From Gemmatimonadota bacterium (GTDB lineage: Bacteria; Gemmatimonadota; Gemmatimonadetes; Longimicrobiales; Gaopeijiaceae), in NCBI GenBank assembly GCA_009692105.1, contig SHZS01000002.1, positions 1 through 64,000 of the forward strand: a DNA stretch of 64,000 nt, written 5' to 3'. This document shows positions 42,740 through 52,737 of this stretch, in pieces. Position 1 is the stretch's first letter. Each line of letters opens with the position of its first letter. The translations under genes were made by a program, and so were the position numbers. Below the pieces are notes generated by a model. That model saw only the letters and a list, made by a program, of their open reading frames with translations. It made no database searches and had not been told where the DNA came from.

Positions 42740-43465
42740 ATGGGACCGGAGAGGCGGTCGGCAGCAGCGTGGGCGAGGGGAGCCCTTGTGCTGGCAGCGC
42801 TCCTTCTCACGGTGCCAACGGGCTGCGCACGCTTGGCCACACCCATCGCGACGGCCCCTTCTCCCGGGGAGGGATGGACGGAGGAGGGAGTGGCCTCCTG
42901 GTACGGAGACCCCTACCACGGTCGAGCGACCGCCTCCGGGGAGACCTACGACATGGAGGCGCTCACCACCGCTCACCGGACGCTTCCCTTCGGCACGATC
43001 GTCCTCGTGGAAAACCTCGAGAGTGGCGAGAGGATCACGCTGCGGATCAACGACCGGGGCCCGTTCGTCCGGGGCCGGGTTCTGGACGTATCGCGGAGGT
43101 CGGCTCGGGACCTCGGAATGATCGGCCCGGGCACGGCACCCGTCCGGATCACGGTTCTCACGGCAACACCTGAGATTGACTGCTGGGAGGTCCAGGCTGG
43201 GGCTTTCGAGCTGCGGGAGAACGCGGACCGGCTACGCGCGGAGCTCGAGGCCGATGGCCATCCGGCCCGCCTGCTGACAGCTCTGGACGGTCTCCACCGC
43301 GTGCGCCTCGGGCCCTTCGCCTCACCGGCGACCTGGCCAACCGCCTGGACGGCCTCGTCTTCGGGTGCTCGCTCTCGGACTAGCGCTGTACGGGCTCGGC
43401 GAGAGCCTGCTCGAGGAGCTCCCGGGCTACCTTGGGGTCCGCCCGGCCTTCGGTGCGCTGCATGA
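42740..43465 (+). CDS. rlpA: RlpA-like lipoprotein with SPOR domain, C-terminal frameshift
   Basis: RlpA-type proteins are lytic transglycosylases or cell-wall binders at the septum. ATG 42740 (ribosome binding site GGGAAGAGGG) gives a lipoprotein signal ending VPTGC. A double-psi beta-barrel domain follows (GVASWYGDPYHGRATASGE, AHRTLPFGTIVLVENL, INDRGPFVRGRVLDVSRR). A SPOR domain (CWEVQAGAFELRENADRLRAEL, HRVRLGPFAS) comes last. After about 43329 the frame as written turns to Arg/Pro-rich nonsense to 43465 and overlaps glnS. A one-base slip there restores a SPOR-like ending (GDLANRLDGL) with TAG at 43381-43383, sharing CTAG with the convergent glnS stop. The true gene therefore probably ends at 43383. 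ATG 42710 is an alternative start. Confidence 0.85.
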   Translation: MGPERRSAAAWARGALVLAALLLTVPTGCARLATPIATAPSPGEGWTEEGVASWYGDPYHGRATASGETYDMEALTTAHRTLPFGTIVLVENLESGERITLRINDRGPFVRGRVLDVSRRSARDLGMIGPGTAPVRITVLTATPEIDCWEVQAGAFELRENADRLRAELEADGHPARLLTALDGLHRVRLGPFASPATWPTAWTASSSGARSRTSAVRARREPARGAPGLPWGPPGLRCAA

Positions 43466-45797
43466 CCTGACCCATGAAGAACCCCATGAGCCCCTCCTTT
43501 CCCGCCCTGTACTCCTCCACCTTCGCGGGGTGGGCCCGAACCACGTCCTTCACGATCGGGCTCAGAGCATCCGCGTCGCTCACCTGCCGGAGCCCCAGCC
43601 GCTCCATGATCTCGCTTGGACTGCCGCCTTCCCGGGCGAGGACCTCGAGAACCGCGGCCCCCCCCCGTCCCGACAGCACTCCACCCTCCACAAGGGAGAC
43701 GAGGGCCGCAAATTCCGGAGCTCCGAAGGGGAGCTGCGCCAGCTCTCGTCCCCCCGCCAAAGGGGGGAGGGCGTTGATCATCCAATTCGCGACGGCCGCA
43801 GCCGAACGCCGCTCGTCGGACGCACCCTGCCTCATGCATTCCGACACCGTCGCCAGGAAGAACCCGCTCAGGGATGGATCACGCGCGAGGATCTCCGCGT
43901 CCGCCGGATCCAGACCCCAGCGGGATCGTAGCTCTTCCGAGCGCTCCCGAACCTCGGGTTCGAGTCGCGGCGGAGTCGCGGCCGGAGCCCGGGGGCGTCG
44001 GGTTACGGCTTCCACCCCCTTCACCGTCCGCTTCCCGCCTACAGTGCGTCCTCGGGGCGACGAGAGTGCATCCTTCCGCGTGCCCCCTCCCTTCACCTTC
44101 GCCCAGGTGTCGCGCAACGTCACGATGCGGTTGAACACGGGCCGGTCCCCGCGCCCATCCACGGGATCCCTCCAGAAGTACCCTACCCGCTCGAACTGGT
44201 AGCGCGTATCTCCCGGGTCGTTCAGGACGGAGGGCTCGACAAGCGCATCCTCGATGATCTCGAGCGAGGCGGGGTTCAGAAAGTCCTTGAATATCGAGTC
44301 CCCGCCCCTGCTGGCGGCCGCGGCCTCCGGGTCCGACACCGTGAAGAGGCGATCGTAGAGGCGAACTGCGCACGGCACCGCATGCGCGGCAGAGACCCAC
44401 TGGATCGTGCCCTTCACCGATCTGCCGTCGACCGGATCCTGGCCCCACGTCGCAGGGTCGTAGCTGCACCGAAGTTCCGTGACGCTCCCCGACGCGTCCT
44501 TCAGGACCTCCTCGCACCGGATGACGTGCGCGTACCGCAGCCGGACCTCACCACCGGGCACCAGCCGCCGGAACCCGGGCGGGGGACTTTCGGAGAAGTC
44601 GTCCCGGTCGATGTAAAGCGCTCCGGTGCAGGCGAGCGGGCGACTCCCTTCCTGCGGGACATCGCGAGGGAAGTAAGGAGCTTCGCTGGTCTCCACCCTC
44701 CCCGTTGGCCACCCAATCAGCGTCACCTTGAGGGGGCGGAGCACGGCGAGGACGCGGAGTGCCTGCCGGTTCAAGTTGTCTCGGATGGCGTACTCGAGCT
44801 TCGCGAGATCCACGCGGGAATCGGCTCTCGCGACCCCAACCATCTCACAGAACTCCCGGATCGCCTCCGGCGTGATCCCGCGACGCCGGAGCCCGGCAAG
44901 GGTGGGCATTCGGGGATCGTCCCACCCCGCGACGTCCCCCTCCTCCACCAGCCGCAAGAAGCGCCGCTTGCTCATGACCGTATAATCGAGGCTTAGCCTC
45001 GCGAACTCGTACTGCCGGGGTCGATGGGGGACGCTCACATTTTCCACGACCCAATCGTAGAGCTCCCGGTTGTTCGCGAACTCCAGCGTGCAGAGCGAAT
45101 GGGTAACGCCCTCGAGGGCGTCCTCGAGCGGATGGGCGTAGTCGTAAAGCGGGTAGATGCACCACGTCCCACCGGTCCGGTAATGGTCCGCGTGCCGGAT
45201 CCGGTAGAGCACGGGATCGCGCATGAGCATGTTCGCCGAGGCCATGTCGATCTTCGCCCGGAGCACGTGCTCTCCGTCACGGTACCGACGGGCCTTCATT
45301 TCCCGGAACAGGCGCAGGTTTTCCTCGACCGCTCGCTGCCGATGGGGGCTCTCCAGCCCGCTCTCGGTCACGGTGCCCCGCTGCTCCCGGATCGCCTCCT
45401 CGCTCTGGGAGTCCACATACGCGAGCCCCTTCCGAATCAGCTCCTCCGCGAAGGCGTACATCTCGTCGAAGTAGTCCGATGCGAAGTAGAGGTGTTCGCC
45501 CCAGTCGTATCCCAACCAGCGCACGTCCTCTTTGATCGCATGGACATACCGCACGTCCTCGGTCGTGGGGTTGGTGTCGTCGAAGCGGAGGTGGCAACGG
45601 GCACCGGCATACTCGGCGGCCAACCCGAAGTTGAATACGATGGACTTGGCGTGTCCGATGTGGAGGAAACCGTTGGGTTCCGGGGGGAATCGGGTGATGA
45701 CCCTTCCCGCGTTACGCCCCGCCACAAGGTCCCGATCGATGATCTGCCGCACGAAATCGCGGCCCGAAGTCGGGGTCGGTGTTGAATCAGGGCCCAT
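43380..45797 (-). CDS. glnS: Glutaminyl-tRNA synthetase with C-terminal GatB/YqeY-type domain
   Basis: GlnRS charges tRNA-Gln directly. The 805-residue protein is about 250 residues longer than E. coli GlnRS (554). The class I core has FPPEPNGFLHIGHAKS (HIGH, residues 46-49), RFDDTNP, and VMSKRRF as the KMSKS equivalent, followed by the anticodon-binding beta barrels to about residue 565. After a basic linker, roughly the last 200 residues match the GatB/YqeY helical tRNA-binding module (FFLATVSECMRQGASDERRSA-like start, ANWMINALPPL, HPAKVEEYRAGKEGLMGFFMGQVM). A comparable fusion is known in Deinococcus. Its stop shares CTAG with the probable rlpA stop. Confidence 0.95.
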   Translation of the reverse strand: MGPDSTPTPTSGRDFVRQIIDRDLVAGRNAGRVITRFPPEPNGFLHIGHAKSIVFNFGLAAEYAGARCHLRFDDTNPTTEDVRYVHAIKEDVRWLGYDWGEHLYFASDYFDEMYAFAEELIRKGLAYVDSQSEEAIREQRGTVTESGLESPHRQRAVEENLRLFREMKARRYRDGEHVLRAKIDMASANMLMRDPVLYRIRHADHYRTGGTWCIYPLYDYAHPLEDALEGVTHSLCTLEFANNRELYDWVVENVSVPHRPRQYEFARLSLDYTVMSKRRFLRLVEEGDVAGWDDPRMPTLAGLRRRGITPEAIREFCEMVGVARADSRVDLAKLEYAIRDNLNRQALRVLAVLRPLKVTLIGWPTGRVETSEAPYFPRDVPQEGSRPLACTGALYIDRDDFSESPPPGFRRLVPGGEVRLRYAHVIRCEEVLKDASGSVTELRCSYDPATWGQDPVDGRSVKGTIQWVSAAHAVPCAVRLYDRLFTVSDPEAAAASRGGDSIFKDFLNPASLEIIEDALVEPSVLNDPGDTRYQFERVGYFWRDPVDGRGDRPVFNRIVTLRDTWAKVKGGGTRKDALSSPRGRTVGGKRTVKGVEAVTRRPRAPAATPPRLEPEVRERSEELRSRWGLDPADAEILARDPSLSGFFLATVSECMRQGASDERRSAAAVANWMINALPPLAGGRELAQLPFGAPEFAALVSLVEGGVLSGRGGAAVLEVLAREGGSPSEIMERLGLRQVSDADALSPIVKDVVRAHPAKVEEYRAGKEGLMGFFMGQVMQRTEGRADPKVARELLEQALAEPVQR

Positions 45798-45927
45798 GAG
45801 TGGTATCGGCTCGGAAGACCATGGCCACGACCGCCCGTCGCCGGACCGATCGATCCAGGATGGCGGGGGGAGTGAAAGCTAGAGCCGGGGCATGGAGGCT
45901 GAAAGGGTTCTCCAGCGGCCATGGTCG

Positions 45928-45956
45928 TTGACCCCGTTCCGCGGGAGGGATAGTTT
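45928..45956 (+). promoter_or_regulatory. Promoter of the histidine operon leader
   Basis: TTGACC (45928-45933), 17 bases, TAGTTT (45951-45956). The predicted start site (about 45963) coincides with the leader peptide ATG at 45964. The GGGAGGGA at 45943-45950 would therefore be promoter spacer rather than a ribosome binding site. Confidence 0.6.
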
Positions 45957-45963
45957 CCACGCC

Positions 45964-46047
45964 ATGCGTAAGCCAATCGTCCATCACCATCACGGCCATC
46001 ATCGCCGGTCCCGGACGGGACGGGTGGAGGTCGGCGTGCGCCCCTGA
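45964..46047 (+). CDS. hisL: Histidine operon leader peptide
   Basis: A 27-codon open frame lies 115 bases before hisG. It begins MRKPIV, then HHHHGHH (residues 7-13), then a basic stretch RRSRTGR and a short tail before TGA 46045-46047. Six histidine codons in seven positions, directly upstream of the his operon and followed by an intrinsic terminator, are diagnostic of an attenuation leader peptide. Ribosome stalling on these codons when His-tRNA is scarce would change folding of the RNA downstream. The ATG sits at or within a base or so of the predicted transcription start, so it would be translated from a leaderless RNA. E. coli HisL has the same role but an unrelated flanking sequence. 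Confidence 0.85.
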   Translation: MRKPIVHHHHGHHRRSRTGRVEVGVRP

Positions 46048-46051
46048 AGCT

Positions 46052-46085
46052 GGGCGCGGCTTAGCGCGACCGAACCCCGCGGCCC
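46052..46085 (+). promoter_or_regulatory. Candidate antiterminator pairing of the his attenuator
   Basis: GGGCGCGG (46052-46059), just after the leader stop codon, can pair with CCGC(g)GCCC (46077-46085) using one bulged G. This would occupy the left arm of the terminator. A ribosome paused at the leader stop would cover the first segment and favour termination. A second option is GGACGGG at 46013-46019, which is identical to the terminator's right arm and complementary to 46083-46089. Confidence 0.5.
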
Positions 46086-46116
46086 GTCCTGACCGGACGG
46101 GCCGTATTTTTTTCTG
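46080..46116 (+). terminator. Intrinsic terminator (attenuator) of the his operon
   Basis: Stem CGGCCCGTCC (46080-46089) and GGACGGGCCG (46095-46104) with loop TGACC, ten perfect pairs, followed by TATTTTTTT. It lies between the leader peptide and hisG on the operon strand, so read-through must be regulated for the operon to be expressed. Confidence 0.9.
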
Positions 46117-46161
46117 ATCACAGAGCATGATAGGGCACCAGAGACTGGCGATGGAGCTCAG

Positions 46162-47025
46162 ATGAGAATCGCAATGCCGAACAAGGGCCGCCTCTCGGAG
46201 AGCGCGCTCAAGCTGTTCGAGGAGGCCGGGCTCAAGGCGGAGTTCCTAGCCGATAGAGCCCTTCTCGCCCAGCTGGGTCCAGAGTTTCAGGGGATCTTCG
46301 TCCGCGCCCAGGACATCCCCGAATTCGTGGCCGACGGGGCCGCCGAACTGGGGATTACCGGGCGGGACCTGGTCGAGGAATCCGGGCGGTCGGAGTTGTT
46401 CGAGCTCCTCGATTTGGGGTTCGGGCGGTGTCGTCTGGCGGTAGCCGTGCGGGACGACAGTGCCGTCGACACCCCCGCTCGACTCCCGGAGGGGACTCGG
46501 GTCGCGACCTCCTTTCCGAAGCTGACCCGCCGTCACTTCGAGTCCCTCGGGATCGGAATCCGGGTCGTGCCGATCTCCGGTGCGGCCGAGATCGCCCCCC
46601 ACCTCGGGGTCGCGGACGCGATCGTGGACCTCGTCTCGACGGGCTCAACCCTCCGGGTGAACGGGCTCAAGGAGATCGGGACGGTCTTGGACTCCTCGGC
46701 CCGGCTGATCGGGAATCGGGCAGCCCTCAAAGCGGCTGGGCCCATGCGCTTGAGCGAGAGGCTCGTCACCGCCCTCGAATCCGTCCTGCGGGCCAAGAAG
46801 AAGCGGTACCTGATGGCGAACGTTCCTCGCGATCGGCTGGGCGAGGTCCGGGAGATCCTGCCCGGCATCTCGGGCCCCACGATCGTGGACATCCTGGACG
46901 GGGGAGCTTGGGTCGCGGCGCACGCTGTGGTAGACGCCGACCAGGTCTATCAGACGATCTCCCGTTTGAAGGAGTTGGGAGCTGAAGGAATCCTGGTCAC
47001 TCGAATCGAGCGGCTCATGCCATGA
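46162..47025 (+). CDS. hisG: ATP phosphoribosyltransferase (long form)
   Basis: HisG condenses ATP with PRPP, the first and feedback-inhibited step of histidine synthesis. The 287-residue length includes the C-terminal ACT-like regulatory domain, so it is the hexameric long form that needs no HisZ. Motifs: MRIAMPNKGRLSESALKLFEEAG at the start, VADGAAELGITGRDLVEE, and the PRPP-binding DLVSTGSTLRVNGL. GGAG (46153-46156) precedes ATG 46162. It is the first structural gene after the attenuator and overlaps hisD (ATGA). Confidence 0.96.
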   Translation: MRIAMPNKGRLSESALKLFEEAGLKAEFLADRALLAQLGPEFQGIFVRAQDIPEFVADGAAELGITGRDLVEESGRSELFELLDLGFGRCRLAVAVRDDSAVDTPARLPEGTRVATSFPKLTRRHFESLGIGIRVVPISGAAEIAPHLGVADAIVDLVSTGSTLRVNGLKEIGTVLDSSARLIGNRAALKAAGPMRLSERLVTALESVLRAKKKRYLMANVPRDRLGEVREILPGISGPTIVDILDGGAWVAAHAVVDADQVYQTISRLKELGAEGILVTRIERLMP

Positions 47026-48338
47026 CGCAGGAGACACTCGGAATCGCCGTCGAGGGACGGATATCGGAGCTCACCGCCGCCCAGCGTGCGCTCTTGCTCG
47101 AGCGGCGCCCCTCCGACGAGGCGCAGCTCCGTGACTCCGTTGGGGCCATCCTCCAGCGAGTCCGGACGGACGGAGACCGGGCCCTGCTGGAGATGGCTCG
47201 TGACCTCGACGGGGTCGAGCTGAGATCGCTGGAGGTTCCGCGCGCCCGCTGGGAGCTGGCGAGCCGCTCACTCGACGGGGCCCTTCTACGTGCCCTCGAG
47301 CGCGCGGCTCGAAATATCCGGGTCTTCCACGAGGCTCAGCTTCCCGGGGAGCTCGTGGTCGAGGTCGAGCCTGGCGTACGCCTCGGTCGGAGGGCCGTCC
47401 CACTGGGCGCGGTGGGGGTGTACGCCCCGGGCGGCCGAGCAGCATACCCGTCATCCGTCCTCATGGGGGTCGTCCCGGCCCGGGCGGCCGGGGTCGAAGA
47501 GATCGTCGTGTGTTCCCCGCCCGGGCCATCCGGGGAGCCGCCCGCCAATGTGCTCGCGGCATGCGCGATCGCGGGAGCCACCAGGCTCTTCGCAATCGGC
47601 GGCGCGGGAGCCATTGGAGCCCTCGCGTTCGGAACCGCTACGGTGCCTCGGGTCGACGCCGTCGTGGGGCCCGGAAACCGGTGGGTAACCGAGGCGAAGC
47701 GCCAGGTCGCGGGAGAGCTCCGCATCGACTCCCCGGCGGGCCCGTCGGAGGTCCTCTTGGTAGCCGATGCCTCCGCGAGCCCTGACCGGATCGCGGCTGA
47801 GCTTGTGGCGCAAGCCGAGCACGATCCGGACGCGTGCGTCTGCGTCGTAAGTTGGAGTGCCGACGTCCTCGAGGCCGTTCGAACTGCGCTTGGGAAGCAG
47901 ATCTCCGAGGCCCCGCGGAGGAAGATCATCGAGGCTGCCCTCGCTGCACGAGGGGCGATGCTGCTCGCAGGCACGCGGAAGGAGGCCCTCGCGTTCGCAG
48001 AGGCGTACGCCGCCGAGCACCTGGCCCTCTTCACGGACGATCCGGCCGAAGACCTGGAGACCCAGACGACAGCCGGGACGGTGTTCCTCGGCGACGCTGC
48101 GTCGGTTGCGTTCGGGGACTACCTGACGGGGGCTAACCATGTGCTTCCGACGGGAGGGAGGGCGCGCTCGTTCTCGGGCCTCTCCGCGCTGGACTTCCTC
48201 CGCTTCTTCACCTGGCAGGAGATCTCTCCGGACGGGGCCGAGCGAATGGCCGACGACGTGGAGCGGCTCGCGGCGGCCGAGGGACTCCCGGGGCACGCGG
48301 CGGCGGTGCGCGCCCGCAGGGATGAGGTGACCCGATGA
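47022..48338 (+). CDS. hisD: Histidinol dehydrogenase
   Basis: HisD carries out the last two oxidations, L-histidinol to L-histidine, with zinc and NAD. The 438-residue protein has PLGAVGVYAPGGRAAYPSSVLM, VDAVVGPGNRWVTEAKRQV, GPSEVLLVAD, the metal and catalytic region VAQAEHDPDA, and the C-terminal GANHVLPTGGRARSFSGL. ATG 47022 overlaps hisG. It overlaps hisC by four bases. Confidence 0.96.
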   Translation: MTQETLGIAVEGRISELTAAQRALLLERRPSDEAQLRDSVGAILQRVRTDGDRALLEMARDLDGVELRSLEVPRARWELASRSLDGALLRALERAARNIRVFHEAQLPGELVVEVEPGVRLGRRAVPLGAVGVYAPGGRAAYPSSVLMGVVPARAAGVEEIVVCSPPGPSGEPPANVLAACAIAGATRLFAIGGAGAIGALAFGTATVPRVDAVVGPGNRWVTEAKRQVAGELRIDSPAGPSEVLLVADASASPDRIAAELVAQAEHDPDACVCVVSWSADVLEAVRTALGKQISEAPRRKIIEAALAARGAMLLAGTRKEALAFAEAYAAEHLALFTDDPAEDLETQTTAGTVFLGDAASVAFGDYLTGANHVLPTGGRARSFSGLSALDFLRFFTWQEISPDGAERMADDVERLAAAEGLPGHAAAVRARRDEVTR

Positions 48339-49384
48339 GCCCGTTCCCGCGCGGGCCGTTCCGAGCGATCCGGCGCTATACCCCGGATCGACGTCCGGTC
48401 GAGATCGACCTCTCGGACAACACGAACCGCTGGGGCCCGCACCCCGCTGCTCTCCAGCTCATCCGGGCGGCGGCCGAGGAGGACCTCATCCGGTATCCCT
48501 CGGTCTACTCCGACGGGCTCCGAGCAGCCATCGCGCGCCGCTTCGGTATTTCCGAGGATGCCATCGTCACGGGATGCGGCTCGGACGATCTGCTGGACTC
48601 GGTGTTCCGCGCCGGCGCGGATGCGGGCGACCGGGTCTCCTACGTGCCACCCACCTTCGTGATGGTGGAAATCTTCGCGCACGCAAACGGCCTGGAGCCG
48701 CGCCCTGTGCCCACCGCTGTGGCATCTGATCCGGAGGCCCTTCTGGAGGGTAGCCCGGCCGTCGTGTACCTCTGTCGCCCGAACAACCCGACCGGCGAGG
48801 TCGCACCGCGGAGCTGGGTCGAAAGGCTCCTCGAAGCCGCGGGTCCCGGGGGCCCGATCGTGCTCCTGGACGAGGCCTACGCGGACTTTGCGGATGACGA
48901 CTTCCTGAAGGAAGCCGCCGCCTCCCAGCGCCTCGTGGTGCTCCGCACCTTCTCAAAGGCGTACGGGCTGGCGGGACTCAGGGTCGGCTTCGCCGTGGGA
49001 CCGGTTGAAGTCGTGGCCGAGATCGAAAAGGCGAGAGGGCCATACAAGGTCGGCCGGACGGCAGAGGGGGCGGCCACCGCCGCGATCGAGGACCGGGAGG
49101 CTTGGGTCCAGGGGATCGTCTCGATGGTGAGGAACGAGCGCGGACAGCTCGTGAGGGAGCTCGAGGCCCGGAACCTCCAGCCGCTTCCGTCCGGTGCCAA
49201 CTTCCTCCTCATTCCCTTGAGAGGAAGATCGGCGAGCCAGGTCACCGCCAGGCTTCGCGAGCGCGGAGTAGCCGTACGCCCCTTCCCGGAGCTGCCGGGG
49301 ATCGGGGACGCAATCCGCGTAACGATCGGGCCGAGCGCCGAGATCGCCCGCTTCCTCGCGGACCTCGACGAGGTGCTCGAATGA
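48335..49384 (+). CDS. hisC: Histidinol-phosphate aminotransferase
   Basis: This PLP-dependent class I/II aminotransferase converts imidazole-acetol phosphate to histidinol phosphate. The 349-residue protein has the expected family blocks: IDLSDNTNRWGPHP, VTGCGSDDLLDSVFRA, YLCRPNNPTGEVAPR, VLLDEAYADFADD and the PLP-lysine motif RTFSKAYGLAGLRVGFAVG. It overlaps hisD and hisH by four bases each, consistent with tight coupling. Confidence 0.95.
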   Translation: MSPFPRGPFRAIRRYTPDRRPVEIDLSDNTNRWGPHPAALQLIRAAAEEDLIRYPSVYSDGLRAAIARRFGISEDAIVTGCGSDDLLDSVFRAGADAGDRVSYVPPTFVMVEIFAHANGLEPRPVPTAVASDPEALLEGSPAVVYLCRPNNPTGEVAPRSWVERLLEAAGPGGPIVLLDEAYADFADDDFLKEAAASQRLVVLRTFSKAYGLAGLRVGFAVGPVEVVAEIEKARGPYKVGRTAEGAATAAIEDREAWVQGIVSMVRNERGQLVRELEARNLQPLPSGANFLLIPLRGRSASQVTARLRERGVAVRPFPELPGIGDAIRVTIGPSAEIARFLADLDEVLE

Positions 49385-49986
49385 TCCGGCTCGGGCTCTT
49401 CGACTACGGCGCCGGGAACCTCCACTCTCTGCGGAAGGGCCTCGAGGCAGGCGGAGCCCGCGTTACGGTGACCTCGGATTGGCAAGAGGCCCTGGGTCAG
49501 GACGGCCTCGTCCTTCCGGGCGTGGGCTCCTTCGGATCGGCGGTGCGGGGGCTCGGAGGGGAGCGGGAGCGGGTCCGGGACGCGCTCGAAGAGGGGCTTC
49601 CCTGTCTCGGGATCTGCCTGGGAATGCAGCTTCTCTTCCCGGCGAGCGAGGAGGCCCCCGGGAACGGGATCGGCTTCCTGCCAGGAGAGGTCCGGCGGCT
49701 CCGCGCACGCATTGTCCCCCAGATGGGATGGAACGACGTGGAGGGCGGGGCGGACCCCATCCTCCGCGGTGTCGGGGACTTTCCGGCGTACTACGCCAAC
49801 TCGTTCATCTGTGAGGTGGACGAGGTCGAGGCGAGCGCAGTGATCGCCACGTCCCGGTACGACGACGATGAATTCGCGGCGGGCGTGCGCAAGGGGCGGA
49901 CGCTCGGGTTCCAGTTTCACCCGGAGAAGAGTTCGAGCGCCGGCCTCCGGATCCTCGCGAACTTCGTCGAGGAGGTGGCAGGGTGA
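49381..49986 (+). CDS. hisH: Imidazole glycerol phosphate synthase, glutaminase subunit
   Basis: HisH hydrolyses glutamine and channels ammonia to HisF. The 201-residue class I amidotransferase starts MIRLGLFDYGAGNLHSLRKG. It has the oxyanion region LPGVGSFGSA, the nucleophile cysteine in GICLGMQLLF, and the His/Glu of the triad in FQFHPEKSS. ATG 49381 overlaps the hisC stop; the longer open frame running back into hisC is not used. It overlaps hisA (GTGA). Confidence 0.95.
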   Translation: MIRLGLFDYGAGNLHSLRKGLEAGGARVTVTSDWQEALGQDGLVLPGVGSFGSAVRGLGGERERVRDALEEGLPCLGICLGMQLLFPASEEAPGNGIGFLPGEVRRLRARIVPQMGWNDVEGGADPILRGVGDFPAYYANSFICEVDEVEASAVIATSRYDDDEFAAGVRKGRTLGFQFHPEKSSSAGLRILANFVEEVAG

Positions 49987-50696
49987 TCGCGGCGCCTGCG
50001 GTCGACCTCTTGGACGGGCGCTGCGTACAGCTGGTGGGAGGGCAGCCCGACGCGGAGCGGGTCTCCCTCCCCGACCCCGTCGGGGTCGCTCGCGGCTGGC
50101 GGGACCGTGGGTTCCGTGTCCTTCACGTCGTGGATCTGGACGCCGCGCTCGAGCGCGGGGGGAACTTGGACCTTGTCTCCCGCATCGCGCGAGACGCCCC
50201 GGGGGAGCTCCAGGTGGGCGGTGGGATTCGGGACACCGGCCGTGCGCGCGCGCTTCTGGAGGCGGGAGTGGACCGGATCATCGTAGGCACCCGCGCCATC
50301 GACGACCCGGCGTGGTGCGGGGAGCTGGCGGAGACCTTCCCGAGGAGGGTGATCGTGGCCGCGGATGTGCGGGACGGCCGGGTCCTGCGGCGTGGGTGGA
50401 CGGAGGAGACCGCGCTCGATGTCGGGAGCTTCCTCGAGACACTCGCCGAGCTTCCGTTGGCAGGGGTCCTTTGGACGGATGTGGGCCGGGAAGGGCGCGC
50501 GCAGGGGATAGACGCGGATCGGGCAGCGGCGGTTCTCGCGGCGACGGAACACCCGGTGTGGGTCTCGGGAGGGGTGACGACGATGGAAGAGCTACGCCTC
50601 CTCAGGGAGGGGGGCGCGGCCGGTGCGGTACTCGGAATGGCCCTATACACGGGAGTTCTCGACGTGGACCTGGTAGCCAAGGAGTTCGGGGGATGA
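49983..50696 (+). CDS. hisA: ProFAR isomerase HisA
   Basis: HisA opens the ribose ring of ProFAR to give PRFAR. The 237-residue TIM barrel has AAPAVDLLDGRCVQLVGG (N-terminal catalytic Asp), LHVVDLDAALERGGN, the phosphate-binding LQVGGGIRDTGRARALLEAG, and the second half VLWTDVGREGRAQG (catalytic Asp) and VWVSGGVTTMEEL. GTG 49983 overlaps hisH; the stop overlaps hisB. Confidence 0.95.
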   Translation: MIAAPAVDLLDGRCVQLVGGQPDAERVSLPDPVGVARGWRDRGFRVLHVVDLDAALERGGNLDLVSRIARDAPGELQVGGGIRDTGRARALLEAGVDRIIVGTRAIDDPAWCGELAETFPRRVIVAADVRDGRVLRRGWTEETALDVGSFLETLAELPLAGVLWTDVGREGRAQGIDADRAAAVLAATEHPVWVSGGVTTMEELRLLREGGAAGAVLGMALYTGVLDVDLVAKEFGG

Positions 50697-51292
50697 GCCG
50701 AATCGAGAGAGAGACGAAGGAGACCCGGATCGTCGCGGACGTTCGGCTCGGAGGCGGTCCAATCGAGGTCGCTACTGGCGACGCGTTCCTCGATCACATG
50801 CTGAACACGCTCGCGCGATACGCGGGGCTGGGGCTCCGGTTGGAGGGGAAAGGTGACTTGAGACATCACCTCATCGAGGATGCTGCGATCACGCTCGGAG
50901 CGGCGCTGGCGCGGGAGGTCCCGGAACGAGCCGAGCGGTACGGTTGGGCGCTCGTCCCGATGGATGAGGCCCTCGTTCAGGCCGCGGTGGACGTGGGAGG
51001 CAGGGGCTACTACGAAGGACGCCTTCCGTCCGCGCTCTACGAACACGCGCTTCGTTCGTTCGCGACCAACCTGGGGGCCACCCTGCATGTCCGGGTGCTC
51101 AGGGGCAGGGACCGTCACCACGTCGTCGAGGCGGCTGTGAAGGCGACTGGGCTGGCGCTGCGCCAGGCCCTCGAGGTGGGAAACGAGGTCTTTTCTACCA
51201 AGGGCGCGGTCGTGCTCAAGGACGGCGGAGCGCCGAAGGCGGCGAAGTCCACGCGCGGGCCGCTCCGACGGCCGGGAAGGCGGAAGGGCTGA
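50693..51292 (+). CDS. hisB: Imidazoleglycerol-phosphate dehydratase
   Basis: HisB dehydrates IGP. At 199 residues it is the monofunctional dehydratase without the N-terminal histidinol phosphatase domain found in E. coli. Histidinol-phosphate phosphatase must therefore be encoded elsewhere. The start is MSRIERETKETRI at ATG 50693, overlapping hisA by four bases. Metal-binding blocks are FLDHMLNTLARY, DLRHHLIEDAAITLG, the middle YEHALRSFATN, and GRDRHHVVEAAVKATGLALR. Confidence 0.95.
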   Translation: MSRIERETKETRIVADVRLGGGPIEVATGDAFLDHMLNTLARYAGLGLRLEGKGDLRHHLIEDAAITLGAALAREVPERAERYGWALVPMDEALVQAAVDVGGRGYYEGRLPSALYEHALRSFATNLGATLHVRVLRGRDRHHVVEAAVKATGLALRQALEVGNEVFSTKGAVVLKDGGAPKAAKSTRGPLRRPGRRKG

Positions 51293-51295
51293 GCC

Positions 51296-52096
51296 GTGCT
51301 CCGCCCCCGCATCATCGTTTGCCTGGACGTCCATGAGGGACGGGTCGTAAAGGGCACGAAGTTCAAGGAGCTCCGGGACGTCGGAGACCCTGTGGAGCTC
51401 GCGCGTCGCTATGAATCGGAGGGTGCCGACGAAGTCGTCTTTCTCGATATCTCCGCCTCCCACGAGGGGCGCGGAACGCTCCTCGACACCGTTCGGCGCA
51501 CGGCGGAGGTCCTTTTCGTGCCGCTCACGGTCGGAGGGGGCATCCGCACGGTCGAGGACATGGACGCACTGCTCCGGGCGGGGGCTGACAAGGTGAGCGT
51601 AAACTCCGGAGCGGTGCACGATCCCGAGATCCTCACGCGGGGAGCAGACCGCTTCGGGAGCCAGTGCGTGGTGCTCTCTATCGACGCGGCGAGGGACGGG
51701 ACGAGCTGGTACCACCACACGCACGGCGGCCGGCGCCGCACGGACATGGAGGTCGTGGGCTGGGCAAAGACGTGCGTGGAGCGGGGAGCCGGGGAAGTTC
51801 TATTGACCTCTATCGACAGGGACGGAGTGCGCACAGGGTACGACCTGGAGCTTACGAGGGCCGTGGCCGACGCTGTGACCGTGCCCGTGATCGCCTCGGG
51901 AGGGGCGGGTACACCCGCCCACCTGAGGGACGGGTTTCGGGAGGGGCATGCGTCGGCGGTTCTCCTGGCGGGAATCCTTCATGACGGGCTTACGACAGTG
52001 CGCGAACTGAAAATTGAGCTTGCCGCATGGGGGATCCCGGTGCGCCCGGCCCCAGCACTTCCGGTGCCGGCGGTTCCAATGGAGGAGGGCCGATGA
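51296..52096 (+). CDS. hisF: Imidazole glycerol phosphate synthase, cyclase subunit
   Basis: HisF uses ammonia from HisH to form IGP and AICAR. The 266-residue TIM barrel has RIIVCLDVHEGRVVKGTKFKEL (catalytic Asp), VVFLDISASHEGRGTLL, VPLTVGGGIRTVEDMDALLRAGADKVSVN, LLTSIDRDGVRTGYDLELTR (second catalytic Asp) and VIASGGAGTPAHLRDGF. The start is GTG 51296, three bases after hisB. It overlaps hisIE. Confidence 0.96.
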   Translation: MLRPRIIVCLDVHEGRVVKGTKFKELRDVGDPVELARRYESEGADEVVFLDISASHEGRGTLLDTVRRTAEVLFVPLTVGGGIRTVEDMDALLRAGADKVSVNSGAVHDPEILTRGADRFGSQCVVLSIDAARDGTSWYHHTHGGRRRTDMEVVGWAKTCVERGAGEVLLTSIDRDGVRTGYDLELTRAVADAVTVPVIASGGAGTPAHLRDGFREGHASAVLLAGILHDGLTTVRELKIELAAWGIPVRPAPALPVPAVPMEEGR

Positions 52097-52737
52097 CGCT
52101 CCCCCCTGAGGACCGACGGCCGACGGACCGACGGATTCGGGACGGCGCGGATCTCGATGCGCTCTCCTTCGACGGGAAGGGGCTCGTGCCGGTCGTAGTC
52201 CAGGACGCGTCGACCGGGCGCCTCCTGATGCTGGCATGGGCAAACCGAATGGCCCTGGAGACGACCCTGGCGACGGGCGCGATGCACTTCTGGTCTCGTT
52301 CCCGTGGCGCGCTCTGGAGGAAAGGTGAGACCTCGGGAAACACTCAGGCCCTCGTGTCGCTCCACGCCGATTGCGACGGAGACACGGTGATCGCCCTTGT
52401 CACCCCTGCTGGCCCGGCATGCCATACGGGGGAAGAGACCTGCTTCGGACTCGACGCGTACCCCGCCTCCGTCTTGGACGAGCTCAGCGGAGTGATAAGG
52501 GCCCGTGCCCGGGAGCGCCCCGAGGGGAGCTACACCACGCGCCTCCTCGGAGATGAGAACCTCCGGCTGAAGAAGCTCGGAGAGGAGGTGGCCGAGCTCA
52601 TCTCGGCCCTCGCACGCAAGGATGCCGGTATCAGTGCCGAGGCGGCGGATCTCGTCTATCACCTGCTGGTGGCGCTCGAGGGAGCAGGGGTGGGCTGGGG
52701 GGAAGTCGAGCGGGAGCTAGAGCGTCGCAGGAGCTGA
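52093..52737 (+). CDS. hisIE: Bifunctional phosphoribosyl-AMP cyclohydrolase / phosphoribosyl-ATP pyrophosphatase
   Basis: HisIE catalyses the second and third pathway steps. The 214-residue protein has a HisI domain with LMLAWANRMALE, HFWSRSRGALWRKGETSGN, the metal cysteines and aspartates in HADCDGDTVIALV, and CHTGEETCFG. A HisE domain follows (RLLGDENLRLKKLGEEVAELI, EAADLVYHLLVALE). ATG 52093 overlaps the hisF stop; an in-frame ATG 66 bases upstream lies inside hisF. The next gene's ATG follows its TGA with no gap. Confidence 0.95.
   Translation: MTLPPEDRRPTDRRIRDGADLDALSFDGKGLVPVVVQDASTGRLLMLAWANRMALETTLATGAMHFWSRSRGALWRKGETSGNTQALVSLHADCDGDTVIALVTPAGPACHTGEETCFGLDAYPASVLDELSGVIRARARERPEGSYTTRLLGDENLRLKKLGEEVAELISALARKDAGISAEAADLVYHLLVALEGAGVGWGEVERELERRRS

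Follow-up and report, generated by a model that had tools for sequence, protein, structure and literature searches.

A probable ribosome-mediated attenuator with a leaderless leader peptide upstream of the histidine operon in Gemmatimonadota

Attenuators of amino acid operons are described, in the available portions of the literature cited here, from Proteobacteria, Actinobacteria and some Firmicutes. Published his attenuators come from Proteobacteria and some Firmicutes, according to the accessible parts of two reports that include predictions in the Bacillus cereus group and the Erysipelotrichales (PMC9413887; PMC2965389), and a survey of Actinobacteria reported no histidine attenuator (PMC1262725). 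In Sinorhizobium meliloti, transcription of the trpL attenuator leader frame starts at its AUG (PMC7298713). Mycobacterial polycysteine sORFs are likewise leaderless leader-peptide attenuators (Canestrari et al., 2020, as cited in the available part of PMC13236596). The first-pass annotation of the DNA analyzed here had suggested that a his attenuator is undescribed in Gemmatimonadota; we found no paper on leader-peptide attenuation in Gemmatimonadetes in the openly readable literature, and a prior prediction is possible.

The locus lies within a 64 kb window, by which we mean the whole stretch of DNA that was analyzed. Judging from its sequence and that of its relatives, it is highly probable that the his operon is controlled by a ribosome-mediated transcription attenuator with a leaderless leader peptide. 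The features, by position in the window, are as follows:

45928–45933, plus strand: -35 box TTGACC (pattern match)
45951–45956, plus strand: -10 box TAGTTT after a 17-nt spacer (pattern match); transcription start predicted at 45963/45964, at the leader ATG
45964–46047, plus strand: leader peptide frame MRKPIVHHHHGHHRRSRTGRVEVGVRP, 27 codons and a TGA stop; His-rich frame kept in relatives
45982–46002, plus strand: regulatory codons CAT CAC CAT CAC GGC CAT CAT, six His in seven positions
46008–46012, plus strand: element 1, GTCCC, which pairs as 5' arm with 46017–46021 in the small protector hairpin 1:2 (alignment pairing)
46013–46019, plus strand: element 2, GGACGGG, antiterminator strand; repeats part of the right arm of the terminator and is complementary to 46083–46089
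46080–46089, plus strand: element 3, terminator left arm CGGCCCGTCC, in which 46083–46089 pairs with element 2
46095–46104, plus strand: element 4, terminator right arm GGACGGGCCG (sequence; conserved hairpin)
46107–46113, plus strand: terminator T-run, seven T (sequence, terminator scan)
46162–47025, plus strand: hisG, ATP phosphoribosyltransferase, long form with C-terminal domain (TIGR00070, TIGR03455)
47022–52737, plus strand: hisD, hisC, hisH, hisA, hisB, hisF and hisIE (NCBIfam)

Downstream of the leader frame and terminator, the operon comprises eight his genes in the order hisGDCHABF-IE. The genes are closely spaced and an ABC transporter comes next after hisIE; the scores of hisC, hisA and hisB are somewhat below their NCBIfam cut-offs. 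The terminator hairpin (46080–46104) has ten pairs, nine G-C and one T-A, with the loop TGACC at 46090–46094 and a TA between the right arm and the seven-T run, and is the only terminator-like site in 45700–46200. Several proposals of the first-pass annotation can be read directly against these data. Its 27-codon leader frame with six His in seven positions at 45964–46047 is present in the sequence, its ten-pair G/C stem with a T run holds apart from the single T-A pair, and NCBIfam profiles recover the hisG and seven further his genes that it placed after the terminator. The host, which it took to be non-proteobacterial and guessed to be Gemmatimonadota-like, is indeed so by its nearest named HisG relatives, which are 72–79% identical and almost all from Gemmatimonadetes/Gemmatimonadales MAGs. 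The divergent neighbor (window 43380–45797, minus strand) is a glutamine-tRNA ligase/YqeY fusion (NF011291).

The arrangement resembles enteric hisL (RF00514) in its operon, its regulatory amino acid and the His run in a short frame, and also in having a terminator before the first structural gene together with an alternative antiterminator. Unlike enteric hisL, the Gemmatimonadota leader frame begins at the predicted 5' end of the RNA or close to it, and the strand that would form its antiterminator is part of that frame, usually 5–9 nt past the His codons. A transcription start at the AUG of a short frame is shared with S. meliloti trpL and, as far as the available text describes them, the mycobacterial polycysteine sORFs, predicted here and known there; the amino acid, the operon and the phyla differ. 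As in the Firmicutes, the locus offers a comparatively predicted His leader with terminator and antiterminator outside Proteobacteria, whereas the accessible parts of the Firmicutes reports do not mention a leaderless arrangement (PMC9413887; PMC2965389). By its parts this is a classical attenuator, and what is new is the combination of his, leaderless and Gemmatimonadota.

The Gemmatimonadota his leader is not a member of Rfam RF00514. The His_leader model had no match in the window, either at its gathering score of 49 bits or at a relaxed threshold, and detected E. coli while finding nothing over the cut-off in 61 Gemmatimonadota genomes. A 38.7-bit match at one locus (L186) was rejected, as it lies at the end of an unrelated gene and has no His-rich frame. 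The same search bears on the idea that the operon is controlled by some other RNA switch for histidine, for instance a T-box that senses uncharged tRNA-His, and that the short frame is incidental. Although his genes are under T-box control in Firmicutes (PMC9413887, available part), no Rfam family reached its gathering score in the window and the relaxed threshold gave only an unrelated match of 16.5 bits. With no T-box covariance model match in the window we rejected a T-box identity, and we consider a switch of this kind scarcely credible next to a ribosome-mediated attenuator.

The leader frame stands out within the window: among 792 short frames (8–60 aa, both strands), it alone has at least five His in eight residues, and no such frame occurred in 60 dinucleotide-shuffled windows. 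To follow it in relatives, as the first-pass annotation had proposed for the His-rich frame, the terminator and the antiterminator, we drew hisG upstream regions from named species and from genomes of the family, order and class to which the window belongs. The resulting 135 non-redundant regions are nearly all from Gemmatimonadota, with two from Candidatus Eisenbacteria and seven of Myxococcaceae type. A His-rich short frame was found in 102 of them, 90 of the 102 regions with the window's type of hisG and 12 of the 33 with a more distant type, so that an absence of both His run and terminator from relatives, named in advance as evidence against attenuation, is not what the window-type regions display. 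These frames are 18–34 aa long (median 27) and 100 of the 102 have 4–7 His in eight residues. A hairpin with a T-run follows in 101 of the 102 leaders, 20–43 nt past the stop; in L059, the sole exception to the automatic search, GGCGCCCGCT..AGCGGGCGC and a T-run are visible by eye. The putative his attenuator can now be placed across Gemmatimonadota and in more than one hisG lineage.

Among these leaders are two from loci that are filed under Candidatus Eisenbacteria (L146, L160) and those of the Myxococcaceae-type loci L148, L149, L151, L158, L159, L167 and L170, the last of which is filed as Comamonas and has the same leader as in Myxococcaceae. The Myxococcaceae-type leaders mostly have a GTG start and an Asp-Gly frame. 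Upstream of hisG in L040 there are two His codons only (MLLATTARRYHHRATLTGSAVVEVRG), with the terminator, GACGGG and a -10-like box kept; sensing is possibly weakened there.

Such retention has to be weighed against a simpler reading, in which the hairpin is a constitutive premature terminator, the His-rich frame is due to chance and nothing responds to histidine. A hairpin with a T-run is common on its own, and the histidine response of the attenuator is one that we infer. However, the His-rich frame, the copied terminator arm and the promoter are retained together across families, shuffled windows hold no comparable frame, and frame and terminator are both missing in group f3 and in sponge-associated groups. 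We regard constitutive termination as very improbable. In f3, hisG directly follows a hisZ-like coding frame (by eye only), and several further genomes whose hisG is distant lack the leader too. It is likewise missing from a group, largely sponge/BD2-11, that carries window-type hisG (L042–L045, L047, L134, L136, L137, L139, L140); in the two of its regions that were inspected, L042 and L134, hisG lies directly behind another coding frame.

The feature proposed in the first-pass annotation began at 45928, which is the first base of the -35 box, and the promoter abutting the leader went unmentioned. Of 102 relatives, 95 have TTGAC at 24–42 nt upstream of the leader start, a count for which start codons were chosen with some weight on the promoter, against 2.2% of dinucleotide shuffles; with a promoter-blind choice of start it is still at the right distance in 81 of 97. 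At the same distance before hisG starts it is found in 0 of 102. The full pattern TTGAC-N16..18-TAnnnT-N3..11-start occurs in 60 of 102 relatives versus 2 of 5100 shuffles. The -10 boxes deviate from TATAAT and end 5–10 nt before the start codon, most commonly 6–7 or 9–10 nt; the start codon itself is ATG in 95 of 102, and the Shine-Dalgarno core is absent at 85 of 102 leader starts. Sigma-70 transcription normally starts about 7 nt past the -10 box, and the 5' UTR of the leader would therefore be 0–4 nt, which leaves no room for a Shine-Dalgarno site. The predicted promoter thus puts the RNA start at the leader AUG or no more than about 4 nt away from it, and translation of the leader peptide very probably takes place on a leaderless RNA.

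The same attenuator could instead have a leader that is read from a longer 5' UTR, with Shine-Dalgarno-dependent initiation and an upstream promoter, the TTGAC/TAnnnT boxes being secondary or fortuitous. In-frame upstream starts do exist (ATG 45892, TTG 45928), and the boxes at 45928–45956 are missed by a generic sigma-70 scan with stricter criteria. Against this stand the fixed distance of TTGAC in the relatives, its lack before hisG and the rarity of a Shine-Dalgarno core at the leader starts, and we think a longer UTR improbable. A literature search turned up no transcription start-site map for these organisms. The predicted leaderless arrangement recurs at high frequency across long distances, which makes it testable whether ribosome initiation at the 5' end is coupled tightly enough for attenuation without a Shine-Dalgarno site.

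Two antiterminator pairings had been put forward. The first, 46052–46059 with 46077–46085, was rejected, as an alignment shows no conservation in close relatives. The second, 46013–46019 with 46083–46089, holds up: the segment does copy the terminator right arm, in the part GGACGGG, and it sits just after the His codons within the leader frame. Across the leaders, the best match to the left arm most often starts 5–9 nt past the last His codon and copies part of the right arm. When arms were swapped among leaders, the mean score for pairing with the leader's own arm was 20.3 versus 18.67 ± 0.27 for permuted arms, with 0 of 5000 permutations as high, the permutation ignoring relatedness among leaders; several leaders, e.g. 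L001, L033 and L114, pair with their own arm at a below-average score.

Single cases reveal matched changes in elements 2 and 3. The leader of L054 has GACAGG and its terminator CCTGTC/GACAGG; in L063, from another family, TCGGAGGCG goes with CGCTTCCG; in L080, GGGGGAAG goes with CTTCCCC; and in L151 (Myxococcaceae), GACGGGCTT goes with AAGCCCGTC. Of the leaders with GACGGG, 35 read it as Thr-Gly, 10 as Asp-Gly and 1 as Gly-Arg. Because it occurs in all three reading frames, it is the RNA segment that is conserved and not the peptide. The locus combines a run of cognate codons in the leader, an intrinsic terminator before the first structural gene and a left-arm antiterminator kept by matched change (swap test, single cases, three frames). 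The conserved parts and the matched changes in relatives support the classical ribosome-mediated attenuation first proposed, and the relatives supply about 100 natural variants of the four-element switch, a few of which come from Gemmatimonas and from bacteria of Myxococcus type.

In an alignment of 30 relatives, 95% of cells are paired for 1:2, 90% for 2:3 and 100% for 3:4, and pairing drops to 16–69% when the helices are slid by one to three columns. Covariation above column shuffles in this alignment is clear for 3:4 and slight for 1:2; the 2:3 helix has no excess because most of its columns hardly vary. In single sequences the strength of the 1:2 hairpin does not exceed that in shuffled sequences (mean z 0.28). 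It is a conserved but weak helix, and a role as a strong element was rejected on this per-sequence stability. A hairpin around the stop codon (GCGCCC..GGGCGC) was also rejected, with a folding probability of 0.00–0.11 in a weak test whose six scored pairs were offset by one base.

For RNA extending to 46094–46098, a folding model gave P(2:3) of 0.99–1.00 with the ribosome on His1–His4 and 0.13–0.25 with the ribosome at the stop codon; with no ribosome it was still 0.33–0.68. With the ribosome on the fifth or sixth His, element 2 is not usable at every point in the model. Once the whole hairpin has emerged, the terminator is favored at every ribosome position tested, with P(3:4) of 0.59–0.98. 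In the model, the switch must therefore be kinetic, which it shares with the classical attenuators.

We infer the following course of events, from the start site through the ribosome stall and the competition of 2:3 with 3:4 to the histidine response. RNA polymerase would start at or a few bases from the leader AUG, as the promoter position implies, and ribosomes would load on the RNA 5' end without a Shine-Dalgarno site. With ample His-tRNA, the ribosome would pass the His codons and reach the stop, where element 2 would be held in 1:2 or left behind the ribosome, and 3:4 would end transcription. With scarce His-tRNA, the ribosome would halt on the His codons, leaving element 2 free as element 3 emerges; 2:3 would then form first and block the terminator, and hisG–hisIE would be transcribed. 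The expected role of leader and terminator is to turn the his genes on only when histidine is scarce.

Leaderless attenuation may extend beyond histidine. In the window's own genome, the TTGAC/TAnnnT-start pattern occurs at 12 sites versus 1 in the reversed control. At L178 (G000 contig C30:24709-24748, minus strand), positions 1300–1620, TTGACG-N17-TAGACT precedes a Cys-rich 28-aa frame (MTRNAATCCAMCCYQTFPLGGGSGRRSA, then a stop); the frame is followed by a hairpin GGCCCCGACCTCT..AGAGGTCGGGGTT with a T-run and then by cysH, making this a candidate leaderless cysteine attenuator. Two genomes of the same family have Cys-rich frames before cysH as well (L188 and L189, about 1117–1300; CCCRCSC and CCLMGCLCCRC), with no clear leaderless promoter. 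No leaderless attenuator was found before ilvB, trpE or leuA within the examined flanks of 24 relatives, and a looser scan for Trp codons gave scattered frames with no pattern. We put at even chances the broader reading that leaderless attenuation is ancestral and general for histidine synthesis in Gemmatimonadota, with the window's genome using it for cysteine (cysH) too; the ancestral part rests on the retention of the leader in several families that differ in hisG type, and on its presence in Ca. Eisenbacteria and Myxococcaceae as well. In the same genome, at L182 (G000 C49:15334), the TTGAC/TAnnnT-ATG pattern stands directly before a 491-aa IMP dehydrogenase-like frame, which suggests leaderless mRNAs beyond attenuators.
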